DNA of 32,159 nucleotides from positions 1 through 32,159 of the IMG/VR virus record IMGVR_UViG_3300045971_000087; one strand, given 5' to 3'. The stretch comes from a virus. The first letter of the stretch is position 1, and each line of letters opens with the position of its first letter. A program made the translations under genes and the position numbers. Below the pieces are notes generated by a model. It saw only the letters and a list, made by a program, of their open reading frames with translations. It was not told the DNA's origin and made no database searches. Shown piece after piece: positions 6,563 through 32,159 of the stretch.

Positions 6563-6911
6563 CGTCGTCCAAACGTGTTACATCTACGTTATCATTCCAT
6601 GGTAAGATCTTATTGCTATCTGTATTGATAGTCTCGATTGGGCGTCCAATAATTCGGTCATGTACTGCAATAAGACACGCAGGATCACCCGTTGCTATTG
6701 CACGATCAATGACAGCAACCATGGCATTGTTGATTTTAGCAATCCACTGAGACTGATATTCATGAACTACCTGTTCAAATGCCTTTTTCATCGTTCGACG
6801 GTTGGCTCTTTCCTTCAAATGTTCAGCATGTTCTTCTGGTGTAAGTGACTTTAAGAACTCAGCGTATGGACTTTGCCCTGGACGCCAGAGAGTTTTTCTT
6901 GGCTTAGGCAT
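6549..6911 (-). CDS. Terminase small subunit, putative
   Basis: About 120 residues starting MPKPRKTLWRPGQSPY at 6911. An in-frame upstream ATG exists at 6956, but the 6911 start has GGAATAAG upstream and overlaps the preceding stop by a few bases. The protein has a basic N-terminus, a helical middle (EEHAEHLKERANRRTMKKAF) and a segment ending CLIAVHDRIIGRPIETI; the IGRPIE signature is common in a class of phage small-terminase-like proteins. It lies directly before the large subunit. It would recognise packaging sites on phage DNA and regulate the ATPase. Confidence 0.7.
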   Translation of the reverse strand: MPKPRKTLWRPGQSPYAEFLKSLTPEEHAEHLKERANRRTMKKAFEQVVHEYQSQWIAKINNAMVAVIDRAIATGDPACLIAVHDRIIGRPIETINTDSNKILPWNDNVDVTRLDDDAAE

Positions 6912-7623
6912 CTTTCTTATTCCAGGGTTTTTTTCCATAAGCAGGGTTATTTGCACCCTTCTTAGACTCAGAAAGTTTTCGTCGTGTTTCTTCTGAAACT
7001 ACTCTGTTACTCATGTAAGTTGATATTTTTTTCTTTGCTTCTTCAGACACAACTTTACCAGTATTCTTTTCTGAGATCTTATCCCTTGTACTTTGTTTTA
7101 CTTTATGTCCGAGAAGGGAATTAGATATCTTTTTTCTTTGTTCTTCCGTTACTTCTCTACCCAAACAGTATTTGTTGCCAGTTGATTTAATCCTTCCTGC
7201 CTCAATACATTGTGGTGTAGGTTTTCTTCCCGTTGCTACTGCTGACATTTTTGCTTTAGTCTCGTCAGATACAATCCTATTCGACGCAGCAATTGACATT
7301 TTTTTTCTTGTTAAGGAACCTATATTTACAAATCCCTCACCACCATCAGTAAGATTGCATAGAGTACCTTTGCCTAAGTCTTTACGACCATGCTTACTAA
7401 TAAATTCCTCCTCAACAAGAATAGCAAGTTCCTCGTCAACATTGGTAACTAAGAAGAAAATAGTTGGGATAATGCCATTCCTTTTCATCTTTTGTATTTT
7501 TTGTGTAAGAGGATGCATATCAGATCGTTTAAGATGAATCCATGCACGACGACCTGTTCCTTTGCCTACATAGAACGGAATTCCATTCTCATCTGAATAT
7601 ACATAAGTGTAGGATTTTTCCAT
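6904..7623 (-). CDS. GIY-YIG homing endonuclease with NUMOD3-type repeats
   Basis: A 239-residue protein. The N-terminal nuclease begins SYTYVYSDENGIPFYVGKGT (a GIY-YIG variant written YVY...YVG). It is followed by RRAWIH and a conserved acidic stretch with EEEF near residue 75. After residue 110 come repeated short DNA-binding modules of the form SDETKAKMS, TEEQRKKIS, STRDKISEK, SEEAKKKIS and SEETRRKLS, typical of NUMOD3. It probably cuts a site in related phages and spreads by homing. It sits immediately before the terminase small subunit, overlapping its start by 8 bases, and looks more AT-rich than its neighbours. The start at 7623 has GGAAAA upstream. Confidence 0.88.
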   Translation of the reverse strand: MEKSYTYVYSDENGIPFYVGKGTGRRAWIHLKRSDMHPLTQKIQKMKRNGIIPTIFFLVTNVDEELAILVEEEFISKHGRKDLGKGTLCNLTDGGEGFVNIGSLTRKKMSIAASNRIVSDETKAKMSAVATGRKPTPQCIEAGRIKSTGNKYCLGREVTEEQRKKISNSLLGHKVKQSTRDKISEKNTGKVVSEEAKKKISTYMSNRVVSEETRRKLSESKKGANNPAYGKKPWNKKDA

Positions 7624-7624
7624 G

Positions 7625-7786
7625 TTATTTTCCGTATGAATAAAGTATTTCTTGAACTATTTCTGCGTCAATAATCAACGGATCAGGAATAAATGGGGGT
7701 AACTGCTGCATGACATTTTGCTCTATGTCATTAAATGGCATCATGTCGAATAACTGTTCGACTTTATTTTGATCAATTTGTGGCAT
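7625..7786 (-). CDS. Small hypothetical protein upstream of the GIY-YIG gene
   Basis: A 53-residue protein starting MPQIDQNKVEQLFDMMPF at 7786. This start is chosen over an in-frame ATG at 7834 because AGGAG lies about eight bases before it. It is acidic and hydrophobic (LPPFIPDPLIIDAEIVQEIL) with no recognised domain. Its stop sits directly before the GIY-YIG start. The homing gene may have been inserted between it and the small terminase, in which case it is part of the original packaging operon. Confidence 0.6.
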   Translation of the reverse strand: MPQIDQNKVEQLFDMMPFNDIEQNVMQQLPPFIPDPLIIDAEIVQEILYSYGK

Positions 7787-7858
7787 TGTATGTCTCCTAA
7801 GACGCCCACTATTAAAGTTAGTGGTAAACTTCACCTAGATGATATACATCCAGTAAAG

Positions 7859-14698: not shown

Positions 14699-15017
14699 TA
14701 ACGAAATGGCAATACGTGTATGGGAATGGATTGATGAGGCAAACGGATTAGGGAATAATACAAAGTTTATGGACGAAAAACTAGGAATCTTGCTTGATGA
14801 AAGCGACGTACACAACGATTTTGGTATTTTTGCGAGGCAAATAAGGACATTACTTGCCAATGTTCATGAAATTTATCATCTAAATTGGTCTCAAACACCA
14901 AGAATGCACGAAAAGTACCACAGACAAATTATAGATACTGCTGCCAAAGCATACCCAGGGCATCATCCACATCCACCATTCAAAGACATTCGTAAGGAGA
15001 TTGAAAATGACCAATAA
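14691..15017 (+). CDS. Hypothetical protein, second of the rightward island
   Basis: A 108-residue, mainly helical protein. The start has AAGGAG eight bases upstream. A His-rich region (HEIYHLNWSQTPRMHEKYH and later YPGHHPHPP) could bind metal or simply be a flexible tail, but no family motif is clear. It overlaps both neighbours, so the genes are translationally linked. Function unknown. Confidence 0.7.
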   Translation: MTDNEMAIRVWEWIDEANGLGNNTKFMDEKLGILLDESDVHNDFGIFARQIRTLLANVHEIYHLNWSQTPRMHEKYHRQIIDTAAKAYPGHHPHPPFKDIRKEIENDQ

Positions 15018-15606
15018 AGAAAAACGAGTATGGGTGTACAAGCACAGAGAAGCACCTCTCAAAGTACGTTCTAAACACGCAGAGCGAATCCGTCTACGCG
15101 ACGAAAAGACAGGTGTGGAATGGCATTACTCTCCAGACTCATGGGCAGATCGCTCTATCCCAGGTGTAGTAGAAAACTCCTGCTACGAATGGAAAGGTTC
15201 TTGGAATCAGAACGGAATGGGTATGTTCCCAATCAAACGTTTTAACGATGAAGCAAAGACTGGAATGATAAACGCACCTAGGTTAGCAATGGCAATACGT
15301 CTTGGTCGCCCACTACGAAAGACGGAATTCGTCTATTCACAGTGCCAAAATCCAGAGTGTACTAATCCAAAGCACTTAACGATTGGCACAAAACAGGATG
15401 CGATTCGTAATGGTAAGGGTCGTGAGAAATGGAGTGATGAATGGCTAGATGCTCATCTAGAGACACTTTTATACTCAACACAAGGCGAAGTAGTACTCGC
15501 ACTGGGGTTGACTAAAAACCAGGCATCAAACTGCAAGACTAAGGCAAAAAAGTACATGGAACGATTAGAGCGCGGTCTTGTTAATTTGAAAAAAGAGAAC
15601 AAATAA
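15007..15606 (+). CDS. HNH-family protein with a substituted catalytic His and a C-terminal helix-turn-helix
   Basis: 199 residues from the ATG at 15007 (AAGGAG seven bases upstream; a TTG at 15001 is less likely). CYEWKGSWNQNGMGMF (59-74), INAPRLAMAIRLGRPL (88-103) and SQCQNPECTNPKHLTIGT (111-128) follow the order of the phage HNH family that carries a HxCDNPxCVNPxHL core. Here the leading His is Ser111, while C113, C118, N120 and H123 remain, so cleavage may be lost or altered. Residues about 158-190 (VVLALGLTKNQASNCKTKAK) look like a helix-turn-helix. It may be a homing nuclease turned DNA-binding protein. Its 3' end is duplicated downstream of the next gene. Confidence 0.75.
   Translation: MTNKEKRVWVYKHREAPLKVRSKHAERIRLRDEKTGVEWHYSPDSWADRSIPGVVENSCYEWKGSWNQNGMGMFPIKRFNDEAKTGMINAPRLAMAIRLGRPLRKTEFVYSQCQNPECTNPKHLTIGTKQDAIRNGKGREKWSDEWLDAHLETLLYSTQGEVVLALGLTKNQASNCKTKAKKYMERLERGLVNLKKENK
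15517..15563 (+). repeat. 47-bp direct repeat, copy 1 (in the HNH-like gene)
   Basis: Bases 15517-15563 are identical to 16018-16064. This copy encodes the start of NQASNCKTKAKKYMERLERG in the current C-terminus of the HNH-like protein. After base 15563 the two copies keep the same amino acids for a few codons but use different codons. Confidence 0.95.
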
Positions 15607-15983
15607 TGGATATATGTACCTACTGCGGAACTTATTCGGGTAATACTCGGGATCATGTTATACCAGCAGCATACACTTCAATAATAAAGAACTTTTCATG
15701 CGGACAAATTGTACCTTGCTGTTCAAAATGTAACACATTACTGGGTTCTAAGATGTATTTGACTGTTCCCGAAAGAGCAGAGTTTCTATTCAAAAGATAT
15801 AAAGAAAAATATCGAGCAATTCTTACTTTTCCTGATTGGTCAAAAGACGAACTAGAGGAAATGTCTGTAACGTTCCAACGTTTAATTAATTCTGCTATTA
15901 GGAAACGTGAAGAATTTACTGAACGACTCAATCATTTAGACATAGTAAGAAACGGCTTTCAAACGCCAGATAACTATGATTAA
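15606..15983 (+). CDS. HNH endonuclease, probably a mobile insertion
   Basis: A 125-residue protein with an intact HNH layout: C4-x2-C7, then TRDHVIPAAY (D16-H17, catalytic His), and VPCCSKCNTLLGSK (C39, C42, N43). The two CxxC pairs should hold zinc. The C-terminal half is helical and charged. It starts in the last base of the previous stop (TAATG). It appears to have entered the 3' end of the upstream gene: the displaced original end remains at 16003-16098, while the element seems to carry a replacement end for its target. It probably acts as a free-standing homing nuclease. Confidence 0.85.
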   Translation: MDICTYCGTYSGNTRDHVIPAAYTSIIKNFSCGQIVPCCSKCNTLLGSKMYLTVPERAEFLFKRYKEKYRAILTFPDWSKDELEEMSVTFQRLINSAIRKREEFTERLNHLDIVRNGFQTPDNYD

Positions 15984-16002
15984 TCTTGATAACCACTCCT
16001 TT

Positions 16003-16098
16003 ATGGGGCGCGATCAGAACCAGGCATCAAACTGCAAGACTAAGGCAAAAAAGTACATGGAACGGCTTGAAAGAGGGCTGATTCAGCCACGAAAGTGA
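16003..16098 (+). pseudogene. Remnant 3' end of the HNH-like gene
   Basis: The reading frame MGRDQNQASNCKTKAKKYME...RLERGLIQPRK-stop matches the C-terminus of the gene at 15007 for about 21 residues, then ends differently. There is no SD before its ATG and the frame lacks the first 170 residues, so it is not an independent gene. It is best read as the original gene end, cut off when the HNH gene and its replacement 3' segment arrived. After the 47 identical bases the following codons (CGG CTT GAA AGA GGG CTG against CGA TTA GAG CGC GGT CTT) are synonymous, showing an origin in a diverged relative. Confidence 0.8.
16018..16064 (+). repeat. 47-bp direct repeat, copy 2 (in the remnant)
   Basis: Identical to 15517-15563, 501 bases upstream. 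Together the copies bracket the end of the HNH-like gene and the entire HNH endonuclease gene. Recombination between them would precisely delete the endonuclease and restore a full-length upstream gene ending in GLIQPRK. Confidence 0.95.
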
Positions 16099-17025: not shown

Positions 17026-20000
17026 TTAAACGTAGAAGTTAGGTGCTTTTTGCTTAGTACCAATACCAGTGCTCTGGTAGTGCATGTCTGCCATGAACAA
17101 GAACGGCTCTGGACCACCATTGACTGTATTTGCAGTTAAGCGAACACGAATCATGAAGATACCATCTGGTTCAAACAATGAGTTATCAAGCAATGTAGCA
17201 CTGCCACCAGCAGAACTAATCGCTGTCTCAGCAATCATGTGCTGATATTGAACTGTACTTGCGTTCTGAGTTACAGTGACAATCTTACTTGCAGGGAATG
17301 CAGCCTGGTCGTGTCCCTTTGAATAGGTTGTCTCAAACTCCCAGGTAACTCCACCAGATGTAGTTCCAGCAGTAGACAATGCCCAGTGAGTATGCATATA
17401 GATATCTGAACCAGGAACATAATCGTGCCCTAAGTGGAACATTACTTCCACATAATCATTGACTGTAAATTGGTATGCACGTAAGTTATTACGGAAAGTA
17501 TTCAAAGTTGGATCAGTAGCAATACCTGTACCACGCACAATGATTGGGCCAAGTAAATCTTGCCATGCATAAGTTGGTGCTGATGGATCTACTTTGATAC
17601 CATTACCTGCTGTCTTAGGCATTACAATACTGCTTGCTGGATATACATCACCTGCTAAGTACGTCTTAGTTGTAGTTGATGTACCAAGTATAGTTGTATT
17701 GCTACCCATGCCTGTCACGCCCGTACCAATAACAATCTCGTTGTTATCGTTATAAGCAAGTGGCAGTGTATCTGCACCAAGGAAGATGTTGTTCCCGCCT
17801 GTCTGTAATGCATTAGCGGCACTATTACCTATACCAGCACGATAACCAATAGCAATGTTGTTATCCATTGTTGCATCGTAAATGTAAGCAGTACCAGTAC
17901 CTGTTGATCCAGTTACGTTTGCAGTAAAGATCCTACCCGCAGTGGATGCAGTAGAACCAATGGAAGTCCATGGAGTAGTACCTACAGAGTTAATCATATA
18001 AGTCTTACCTGATACGATATTACCTGCCGTTTGTGCTGAGCCTAAGTTCTGCAATGCTGTATGACCTAACGCTACGGAATTACTTACAGTAGCAGCATTT
18101 TGTAACGCATTCTTACCAAAGACTGTATTCAAAGAACCAGTCTGCATACCTAAACCAGCTGCTCCACCAATAACGTGGTTACCTTGACCCGTATAGCAGT
18201 TGTTCAACGTAGCATTACCAATAGCAATAGTGCCTGACATGTCGTTTAGAACTGCTGTGCCAGTGCCAGTGCCTTGTGCCGAACAAGTAAAACGTGTCCC
18301 AACTACATTGGCCGCTGCACCAATCAATGTAAAGTCAGTTGTGCCAAGAGTAACGATGTTATAAATTAGACCTGGAATCAGAACAGTTGCTGCTCTTGCT
18401 GCACCATAGTTAGAACCACCACCAATTAATGTATTTTGTGTGCCATACATTAAACTACTACCAGCACCGTTGCCAATAGCAATAGCAAAAGTGCTTCGTT
18501 GCATTTTGCTCAACGTATTATAACCAATTGCAGTAACACCAGTCGCGACATAACGAACTGTGCCAGTACCAGAACCAACACCAGTTGGCGTAAATGTAGT
18601 GCCAACGTTGTTATTGGCAGCACCAATTGCTGTGAAACTTGTTGTTCCAACTGTATCAATCACGCATGATACTCCAACTGGAATTGAACCAGCAGTGATT
18701 ACCGTAGCGGCATTTTGTAATGAATTGGAACCAACTGCTACAATCTGTGATAAGTTCTTCGAGTTCTGCATTGCTCCAGAACCAAGTGCAACGTTGTTTG
18801 AACCAGTTGGATCTATCAGCAATACATTAGCGCCAATGCCAACGTTATTTGCACCAGTAGTTAGGTTACCCATCACGTTGTCACCAACGCCAATGTTATA
18901 TGTACCAGTAGTTACGTTTGCTTGAGTTGTTGAGTTACCAATACCAATGTCAGTGGCAACATTTCCTTTAACTGTAATATTGGATAATTGAACTGTTCCA
19001 GATGTAGTTAAGTTTGTTGCTGTAACCGCTAATGGAGTTACGTTACCAATAACAACGTTATCTATAGTAAAACCTGATCCAGATACATCAGAAGACAGTG
19101 GGAAACTCGATCCACCACCTCCACCACCAGTAGACGAAATTACATTTCCAACAATTGTAATGTTAGTACCAGCAGTATAAGTTGGTGCTTGCGTGATCGT
19201 CGATGTGATCGTGTTACCAGTAATGCTGATTCCGTTTCCTGCCACATAGTGATACAACTCGTTACCTGAGGAAAAAACATGAGATGCATAGATATTACCA
19301 ACTGCCGTTATATCTGTGTCTGAATAAATTGATCCAGGAACAGATGTACCAGATACATGTAAGTTACCAAATAAAGTAGTCTTGGTGTTATAGATAGAAC
19401 CAATGACTGTGTTCCATGAACCACGACTTGCACCACCAATAACAATGCTATGAGTTTCACTGCTTGATTGTGGTACAATACTTGCACCAATAAGAATGTT
19501 ATCGTTACCTGTTGTTAGCGAGTTAGGTCCAAAGTAATCGACGCCCGTAGCAAAACCGATTCCAATATTATTATAGCCAGTTGTCACATCTCTAAATGCC
19601 TGTGAACCAAGTGCAAGGTTAAACCCACCAGTAGATGTATTGTAAAGTGTTAACGTACCAATACCTACGTTATTTGCACCATCAGTTTGGTTATTTAAGG
19701 AATACGCACCCAATGCCATGTTAAATGACTTGGAGTAATCTCCTGTATCAGGTGGTAAGATGTTAAGGGCACCAGCACCCAATGCTAAGTTAGTTGAGTC
19801 ACCACCGCTTGTACCACCACGACCAACCTTAACACTGTTGATATATGCATCACTTCCTGTAGTAAGTTGCTTGGCAATACCAACACCACCATCAACAATA
19901 ATTGCACCTGTTGTTGGAGTAGTTGAATCAGTACTATCTACGACATGCGTCTGGGGAACGGCAGCCCAATCAACTGTAGTACCACCCCCTGTACTAGAAA

Positions 20001-22203
20001 TTGTAACTGTCACGTTGCCACCAGACGCAGTCGCTACTACTCCGTTACCAACGAAGTTGATTGAACTTGCTACTGACGAAACAACATTTCCTTCGTCTGA
20101 AATAGAAACTGTACCAGCACCTGTGGCACCCACATTACCAAAGCGTGTAAAGATAACCCCAACATTATCGTTATCCGTCATCGTACCAGAGACGTAAACA
20201 ACTGGTACTGAGTAGTAATCGCTGTTGGTTGATGTAAGCGGTCCAACAACATTTCCATTCACTGAATAGATCAGAGATTTGTTGTTGTTAGCAATAACGA
20301 TATCGCCTTTGACTGTGCTATTTGAATCATCAAACGTTGCGATCCAGTTAGCGATGTTGCTACCAAACCAGTCTGAAGTGGAAACATACATCGTCGTTGC
20401 TGACGCCAATGTTGCATTATTAACTCGTATCTCAGCAGCACCAATCGCTGGGGTAGTTGTTGGTGATGTATGGTTGTCAAACCAAAGTGATACACCGCCT
20501 TGTGGTCCAGTGTTACCAGTTGCACCAACATTGCCTTGAGGGCCAGTCGAACCCGTTACTCCTGTATTACCTTGAATACCTTGTGGTCCAGTAGGACCCG
20601 TATTTCCAGTTAAGCCTTGAGGACCAGTTGGTCCAGTATTACCTTGAATACCCTGGGGGCCAGGTACTGTACTATCTGCCCCGGCCGCACCAACAAGTGA
20701 TGCCATCCACTCCGCTTCAGTACCACTGTATCCGTTAAATACTGCAATTTCATAAGCAGAGTAACCGCTTGGCCCCATAGGACCCACATCGCCTTGTATG
20801 CCTTGTGGTCCAGTGTTACCTTGGACACCTTGTGGACCAGGTACAGTAGAATCCGCTCCAGTAGCGCCTGTATTTCCCTGAATACCCTGTGGACCAGTGT
20901 TACCTTGAATACCTTGAGGGCCAGTATCTCCAGTAGCGCCTGTGTTACCAGTTACGCCTTGAATACCTTGAGATCCTGTATTGCCTGTTGCTCCGGTATT
21001 GCCTTGAATACCTTGTGGTCCAGTTGGCCCCGTATTGCCTTGAATACCTTGTGGCCCCGTATCACCTACGTTACCTTGAATTCCCTGAGGTCCAGTATTG
21101 CCTTGAATACCTTGTGGTCCAGTCGCACCTGTATCTCCAACATTTCCCTGAATACCCTGAATGCCTTGTGGTCCTGTAGCGCCTGTGTTACCAGTTACGC
21201 CTTGAATTCCCTGAGGTCCAGTATTGCCTTGAATACCTTGTGGTCCAGTCGCACCTGTATCGCCAACATTTCCCTGTACGCCTTGTAGACCTGTGTTACC
21301 TTGTATGCCTTGTGGTCCAGTGTCTCCAGTAGCGCCTGTGTTACCAGTTACGCCTTGTATGCCTTGTGGTCCAGTGTTACCTTGAATACCCTGTGATCCA
21401 ACATTTCCCTGTACCCCTTGAATGCCTTGCTCGCCCTGTGGGCCACGAATCGCACCAACATTGTTCCAAGTAGATCCAGACCATACATAACCATTGCCGT
21501 CTGCTAAGACGACATACAAGTCGCCCATTACATTGCCTGTTGATGGTAGGTCTCCAAATGTTGCTACTGATCCTTTTAGAACAACTGAAGTACCAGCTGC
21601 ACCTGTACCACCTACGTTACCTTGAATTCCCTGAGGTCCAGTATTGCCTTGAATACCTTGTGAACCTGTTGCTCCAGTATTGCCAGTTAAGCCAGTATCT
21701 CCCTTATCTCCTTTGATACCTTGTGGTCCTGTATCTCCAACATTTCCCTGGATACCTTGAGCGCCCGTTGCTCCTGTGTTTCCAGTAATACCTTGAATGC
21801 CTTGGATGCCTTGTGGACCTGTATCTCCTTGAATACCTTGAATACCTTGAGCACCCGTATTGCCTTGAATACCTTGTGGTCCTGTACTACCAGTCGCACC
21901 AGTAAGCCCAGTATCGCCCCTCGGGCCTACATCGCCAGTATCTCCTTTAACGCCTTGAATGCCCTGGACTCCTTGAGGACCAGTGTCGCCAGTTAAACCA
22001 ATGTTACCCTGGATACCTTGTGGCCCCTGAGCACCTGTATCACCTACATTACCTTGAATACCTTGCTCACCTCTTGGTCCTACGCCAGAGAAGGTTTGCA
22101 GATTTAACTTTGCTTGAGACTCAGTTAAGTTGAGTTGTGTGACTTGTTCAGTCACATTGATTTGTGTAACGTCTGTCGTTACATTGATTTTGTAATCAGC
22201 CAT
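17026..22203 (-). CDS. Giant collagen-like tail fibre / receptor-binding protein
   Basis: 1,725 residues, about 16% of the genome. A short N-terminal region with repeated NVTxxVTQxN (1-40) presumably attaches to the tail tip. Gly-X-Y triple-helix blocks (about 42-200, 250-475 and 505-570, mostly [10 protein letters not shown] units) are broken by two small globular inserts: a [20 protein letters not shown] domain (about 201-250) and a [18 protein letters not shown] domain (about 476-504). After a beta-rich spacer comes a long beta-roll of NNVGIGxxxL / GNNNIFLGA units (about 790-1500), like trimeric adhesin heads. The C-terminal domain (about 1535-1725, with [10 protein letters not shown] and FMADMHYQ) is probably the tip or trimerisation domain. 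It should form trimers. Confidence 0.88.
20530..21450 (-). repeat. Collagen-coding DNA repeats, second and third blocks
   Basis: Short related units, in 9-base steps, encode [12 protein letters not shown] and similar triplets. On the plus strand phrases such as ACCTTGAATACCTTGTGGTC recur many times with silent changes. The array is interrupted at about 20690-20775 by a non-collagen insert. Such arrays change length by slippage and recombination and are difficult to assemble from short reads, so the exact copy number should be treated with care. Confidence 0.85.
21600..22085 (-). repeat. Collagen-coding DNA repeats, first block
   Basis: This is the N-terminal Gly-X-Y array of the fibre, separated from the next block by the globular insert at about 21450-21600. 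Units are more varied than in the later blocks (GDT, GLT, GPR and GDK triplets alongside GIQ and GNT). They include KGDKGDTG, a charged pattern that stabilises bacterial-type collagen. Confidence 0.85.
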
Positions 22204-31492: not shown

Positions 31493-31813
31493 CTATTTTC
31501 CTTTTTTCTGTGCGGAGGCATGAATCAACTTATCCATTTCCTGCTTAGTGGGTGTGACCATACCCTTAGGTGCTTGGACTGATCCTTGCATCTTCTTTCC
31601 TACCTTTTTACGACCTTCGTTTAAGACTTCAGCATACGGATAATCTGCTTCAATAACGCCGTTGATTAACTTCGTATTGCGTCTTGCATTACCTTTGTTT
31701 ATTGGTGTATTCTTAATGAACAAAGGTAATACTTGTTTCATGACATCAACTTTAACGCCGGCAAGAGCAGCGAGTTTCTTCTTCAGTCCGTCGTCGTTAA
31801 AGTTGTTAGCCAT
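31493..31813 (-). CDS. HK97-gp10-like minor virion protein
   Basis: A 106-residue basic protein. ALAGVKVDVMKQVLPLFIKN, then NTPINKGNARRNTKLINGVI and ADYPYAEVLNEGRKKV, matches the pattern of the HK97-gp10 family (helix, TPxxxGNARR-type turn, strand, YAxxxExG). These proteins act in head-tail joining or tail completion. Its place here, between chaperone and tape measure rather than among the connector genes, is less usual. The start overlaps the chaperone-extension stop by one base. The C-terminus is Lys-rich. Confidence 0.75.
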   Translation of the reverse strand: MANNFNDDGLKKKLAALAGVKVDVMKQVLPLFIKNTPINKGNARRNTKLINGVIEADYPYAEVLNEGRKKVGKKMQGSVQAPKGMVTPTKQEMDKLIHASAQKKGK

Positions 31814-32076
31814 TATTTTGTTCTCTTCTTACTATTTACTATCGCCCAAAGTTGTTCCTCTGACAGGTTAGACGATTTGTTCGCATACTTGTCTGGATTC
31901 CTTTGTCTATCATAGTATTCAAGTGCTCTAGTAAGAATAAAGACATCAAGAGTGTTTGCGTTGCGTAATGCTTGACTGGGTAAGCAGTGATATCTCTCGC
32001 TCATCCTATCAAGCATCAACACCATGTTTAACTCCGGGTTGCCTTCAATGAAGTCACTGTTGGAACTCGTTGTGAC
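31813..32076 (-). CDS. Tail assembly chaperone long-form extension (gpT-like, -1 frame)
   Basis: The 87-codon -1 extension of the chaperone. It begins at the base after GGGAAA (reading VTTSSNSDFIEGNPELN), enters the segment starting MVLMLDRMSERYHCLP at 32025, and ends with TAA at 31813-31815. No stop occurs on the way. The product fused to the first 99 residues of the short form would be 186 residues. In lambda the T part binds the tape measure while the G part recruits tube subunits. An internal ATG at 32025 lacks a good SD, so expression by frameshifting is the better explanation. It spans the contig junction on the circular map. Confidence 0.8.
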   Translation of the reverse strand, partial: VTTSSNSDFIEGNPELNMVLMLDRMSERYHCLPSQALRNANTLDVFILTRALEYYDRQRNPDKYANKSSNLSEEQLWAIVNSKKRTK

Positions 32077-32159
32077 TTTCCCAATTGCTCCATCACCTTT
32101 GTAAGAGCCTTAGCCATCAAGTTGGCATCTGGCATCTCCCCTTCGTTGAATGACTTAGT
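32028..32159 (-). CDS. Tail assembly chaperone, partial second copy at the contig end
   Basis: The 3' part of the gene at 69-413 repeated in the terminal overlap; the 5' end lies beyond the window edge. It differs by one codon (Gln instead of Lys at residue 96, from G at 32087). It is not a second gene on the circular map. Confidence 0.9.
   Translation of the reverse strand, partial: TKSFNEGEMPDANLMAKALTKVMEQLGKSQRVPTVTSLKATRS
32076..32082 (-). other. Programmed -1 ribosomal frameshift site GGGAAAG (right copy)
   Basis: This is the right-hand copy of the slippery heptamer, in the same phase. Reading -1 from here gives 87 codons ending with the TAA at 31813-31815. The single mismatch between the terminal repeats (32087) lies just upstream and does not touch the heptamer. 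Confidence 0.85.

Follow-up and report, generated by a model that had tools for sequence, protein, structure and literature searches.

Homing systems that exchange the end of their target gene have been described in yeasts and in fungal mitochondria. In the WHO elements found at FBA1 of Torulaspora and Lachancea yeasts, a nuclease gene is preceded by a replaced 3' end of the host gene and followed by the old fragment; the latter has been proposed to serve as the right homology arm and the differences in the replaced end to give resistance, and nuclease cleavage was shown for Who6 (PMC7282813). The WHO nucleases are intein-related, harbour zinc fingers, are independently transcribed and are often clustered. 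The mORFs of Allomyces atp6 and of Glomus mitochondrial atp6, atp9, cox2 and nad3 similarly come with foreign C-termini (PMC3630166): an inserted C-terminus with few protein differences follows the core gene, and an endonuclease ORF separates it from the native C-terminus left downstream. Among phage systems, intronless homing of the T4 seg/mob type involves free-standing endonuclease genes, with co-conversion of the flanking target known for the class and cleavage sites usually distant from the insertion (PMC2988022).

Here we describe a phage locus with an end-replacing layout, in the IMG/VR virus record IMGVR_UViG_3300045971_000087. The whole stretch of 32,159 nucleotides that was analysed is hereafter called the window. 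It carries a 200-bp direct terminal repeat (1-200 and 31960-32159, one mismatch); the record gives no completeness value but probably represents an entire genome of some 31,959 bp. The locus consists of the following features:

15007..15563, plus strand: core of gene A, HNH-family (phrog_826, E=1e-9; phrog_6254, E=2e-9; alignment to six homologues)
15517..15563, plus strand: 47-bp repeat, left copy, read in frame as part of gene A (NQASNCKTKAKKYME plus 2 bases)
15564..15606, plus strand: gene A 3' end, presumed replacement (RLERGLVNLKKENK, stop), GC 0.30-0.31
15606..15983, plus strand: small HNH endonuclease gene, intact, encoding 125 aa (phrog_36777, HNH_5-like), GC3 0.256
15984..16017, plus strand: junction, 34 bp, GC 0.50
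16018..16064, plus strand: 47-bp repeat, right copy
16065..16098, plus strand: gene A 3' end, presumed old and displaced (RLERGLIQPRK, stop)
15976..16098, plus strand: 40-codon frame holding the displaced end, without visible ribosome-binding site or phage homologue

As in WHO elements, the host gene is intact but ends in a substituted, DNA-diverged 3' segment, the endonuclease gene comes directly after it, and a remnant of the former 3' end lies further downstream, if the direction of replacement is as we infer. The phage nuclease is an HNH protein, not an intein-related nuclease with zinc fingers as in the WHO family proper; its gene seems to be translated as a continuation of the host gene, it is present as a single copy, and the repeat is perfect. 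The likeness to mORFs extends to the order of core gene, foreign C-terminus, endonuclease ORF and stranded native C-terminus. However, mORFs encode LAGLIDADG or GIY-YIG nucleases, lie in essential respiratory genes and have yielded hybrid transcripts, whereas the phage locus has an HNH gene; moreover, the native end of mORF targets was identified via close relatives, while here the direction of replacement is deduced. The locus shares a free-standing HNH gene with the T4 seg/mob class, but the T4 review (PMC2988022) mentions no duplicated gene end. It is neither an intron, an intein nor a case of ordinary intronless homing: the region between 13 and 18 kb gave no Rfam match, and a stop codon separates the reading frame of gene A from that of the HNH gene, which argues against an intein or another interrupting splicing segment.

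The two copies of the repeat (15517-15563 and 16018-16064) are identical over all 47 bp, as the earlier note on this sequence had claimed. The terminal repeat and the collagen-like fibre gene aside, the window has no longer exact repeat; when 20.5 kb of it were shuffled base by base, none exceeded 18 bp. Immediately beyond the repeat, the next six codons (cga tta gag cgc ggt ctt in one copy, cgg ctt gaa aga ggg ctg in the other) differ at eight bases, such that 6/6 codons are changed and 8/8 differences are synonymous; none of 400,000 random versions with eight changes retained the RLERGL residues. Codon differences thus pass from 0/15 inside the repeat to 6/6 after it (p = 1.8e-5 under a uniform rate of change), which argues that two gene ends that diverged long ago under protein selection are now joined to a recent 47-bp duplication. 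On this codon pattern, the C-terminus of gene A was under purifying selection in both lineages. Past RLERGL the ends differ, with VNLKKENK and a stop at 15606 in one and IQPRK and a stop at 16098 in the other, also in agreement with the earlier description. When one repeat unit is taken out and its flanks are joined, the result is an open, in-frame gene of 196 aa with a GLIQPRK C-terminus, so that the proposed restoration of the gene by deletion between the copies holds at the level of the reading frame.

One might consider that the locus stems from tandem diverged copies of gene A with the HNH gene between them, the second copy having been mostly lost and a short tract homogenised by conversion. 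The residues ahead of the right repeat, MGRDQ compared with LGLTK, could represent weak homology, but upstream of that repeat the similarity stops at MG/LG, and a duplication, a deletion and a conversion tract with a sharp edge would all be required. We regard this scenario as improbable. Still less credible is a chimeric assembly in which a strain bearing the VNLKKENK tail and HNH gene was merged with another bearing the IQPRK tail. The record is metagenomic, and the one-base mismatch between the terminal repeats indicates that strain variation or error exists in it; nevertheless, the 16017/16018 junction connects non-overlapping sequences, which calls for a real molecule, and the stretch is devoid of gaps or N.

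Gene A (15007-15606, plus strand, 199 aa) belongs to the phrog_826/phrog_6254 group of HNH proteins, distinct from that of the downstream HNH gene. An alignment with six homologues showed that the zinc-ligand positions C113, C118 and H123 are retained, and that Ser111 and Ala132 take the place of the catalytic His and Asn residues found in most homologues. The catalytic roles of these His and Asn residues are known from His-Me/HNH_3 enzymes. In their absence, the gene A product is probably a nuclease-dead DNA-binding protein; its structure was poorly predicted from the single sequence (pLDDT 43). The presumed target is itself a catalytically degenerate HNH-family protein and no ordinary host gene, which qualifies the proposal that the insertion kept a host gene functional without intron or intein.

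The gene between the repeat copies is open from end to end, and its product harbours the Cys4 zinc site and the DH and CN motifs of the HNH family (HNH_5/phrog_36777), at positions that are invariant in a 13-sequence alignment; the intact HNH gene of the earlier note is thus borne out. The protein matches phrog_36777 (E 4.5e-18) and, by profile comparison, solved HNH endonucleases (PDB 4h9d, 2.6e-5), while its HNH_5 match (E=1.3e-4, 22.3 bits) lies under the Pfam cut-off of 27.5. Its structural model has a pLDDT of 80, and a Foldseek search with this model returned no match below E 0.8, so that structure prediction contributed no further evidence. Relatives of the gene are found in cyanophages, Klebsiella phages, Vibrio phages and IMG/VR contigs; a scan of GTDB genomes for the family gave one weak match.

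The stop codon of gene A overlaps the start codon of the HNH gene (TAATG), and the replacement end contains AAAGAG, a Shine-Dalgarno-like motif for the HNH gene. We infer a functional role for this site, which reads AAAGAGAACAAATAATG within the tail. The end of another gene (31813-32025), at 31813-31845 on the minus strand, encodes VNSKKRTK (AAGAGAACAAAATAATG) and resembles the VNLKKENK replacement end at 15579-15608 on the plus strand (AAGAGAACAAATAATG), a likeness that possibly reflects shared start-site constraints only. The 40-codon frame at 15976-16098 starts just ahead of the HNH gene stop; no homologue of it was found in phages, and it is probably a non-functional relic. Elsewhere in the region, a sigma-70 consensus promoter (TTGACA, 17, TATAAT; 12/12 match) at 14480-14452 on the minus strand faces the leftward genes.

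Base composition bears on which part is new. The segment 15564-15983, comprising the replacement end and the HNH gene, has a GC content of 0.345, compared with 0.445 for the gene A core and 0.50 for the displaced end; of all 420-bp stretches in the genome, 99.8% are richer in GC. Together with the low GC3 of the HNH gene (0.256), this favours a joint arrival of the HNH gene and the tail that encodes VNLKKENK, although the tails by themselves (34-43 bp) are too short to decide. That GC3 value is the lowest among the genes tabulated, and the next lowest belongs to a GIY-YIG/NUMOD3 homing-type gene (6904-7623, minus strand; 0.259), flanked by a small gene at 7625-7834 and the probable small terminase gene. 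In three relatives (L003, L004 and L005), a small gene with a similar start directly precedes the terminase gene, with no endonuclease gene between. That this site is empty in relatives indicates that the phage lineage does receive homing-type genes.

The reading that we favour, with some reservation and for a single case, is that this phage carries a probable homing unit of the WHO/mORF type. What moves would comprise the HNH endonuclease gene and, upstream, a recoded but protein-preserving 3' end of the target gene. On entry into a gene A allele, it would swap the 3' end, retain the frame and strand the previous end downstream, and this fragment would then provide homology on the right-hand side at the next transfer, as proposed for WHO elements. 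Cleavage is predicted to occur in rejoined gene A near 15563/16064 or slightly upstream, and the silent recoding of RLERGL would shield the occupied allele. The replacement end would also provide the translation signals of the HNH gene. The lack of alleles in relatives and of a duplication at 17 other HNH family loci (see below) counts against this homing unit, and a further observation sits poorly with it: the right fragment retains the presumed sensitive sequence (16059-16079) unrecoded, so that the enzyme would hit its own genome unless its site also takes in sequence ahead of 16018, or unless it makes nicks only, as has been reported for MobA and MobE (PMC2988022). The perfect repeat would fit homing if the donor fragment already had the allele type of the recipient, or after later conversion; one simple insertion, or a single cut in a single molecule, does not fully account for it. 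The earlier notion of a homing element that re-supplied the C-terminus from a diverged relative is supported by the architecture and the codon-level signal, but needs more than one simple insertion to explain the 47-bp repeat.

The repeat is explained more simply by a template switch, unless the donor fragment shared the recipient's allele type. A one-off illegitimate recombination or template switch between two related phages would have copied a diverged gene A tail and the HNH gene, and a return to gene A a little ahead of the position where copying had left it would directly yield the exact 47-bp duplication; the HNH protein would then be uninvolved and the unit immobile in this form. For such an event, however, it would be a coincidence that the insert comprises exactly a complete gene end and an intact endonuclease gene whose signals for translation overlap, and we consider it rather unlikely. 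The absence of the layout from HNH family loci elsewhere and the lack of a second example in the phage sequences scanned, both detailed below, speak in its favour.

Neither an empty nor an occupied allele of the locus was found in IMG/VR or INPHARED using a phage DNA search, IMG/VR protein scans with gene A, the HNH gene and a primase-like gene, and exact and degenerate repeat patterns. The three terminase relatives (85-87%) are short contigs that fall short of the locus. Other relatives (L113-L129) are different phages with only the fibre end in common. The collagen-like fibre gene (17026-22203, minus strand, 1725 aa) has a C-terminal domain that is shared at 84-86% with the otherwise unrelated contigs L113 and L114, which suggests that a fibre-end module has been exchanged.

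No duplicated gene end was present at 17 other HNH family loci, three of which have little or no downstream sequence, and the layout was accordingly rejected as a general trait of the family. A C-terminal fragment across an endonuclease gene was likewise absent from 131 loci (1.09 Mb), and no comparable case was detected in T4, ICP1, SPO1, Twort, CP81, 949, S-PM2, Aeh1 and most of KentuckyRacer, where the other matches were judged by eye to reflect paralogy, zinc fingers, repeats in structural proteins or chance similarity with low scores. Altogether, more than 2 Mb of other phage sequence, including the nine large phages and the 17 HNH gene relatives, yielded no second example, and the layout does not appear as a common phenomenon in the phage sequence surveyed. 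In the open-licence literature we found fungal and yeast cases only and no phage one, and a report elsewhere is possible.

The end-replacing layout, already described in yeasts and fungal mitochondria, was thus seen in no other virus examined here. If the homing unit is real, end-replacing homing would have arisen outside eukaryotes too, with an unrelated nuclease, and this phage would offer a model, amenable to simple crosses, for testing the mechanism proposed for WHO elements, with the fragment as a homology arm and silent changes conferring resistance. It would also serve as a warning that gene ends next to phage endonuclease genes may differ in history from the remainder of the gene.
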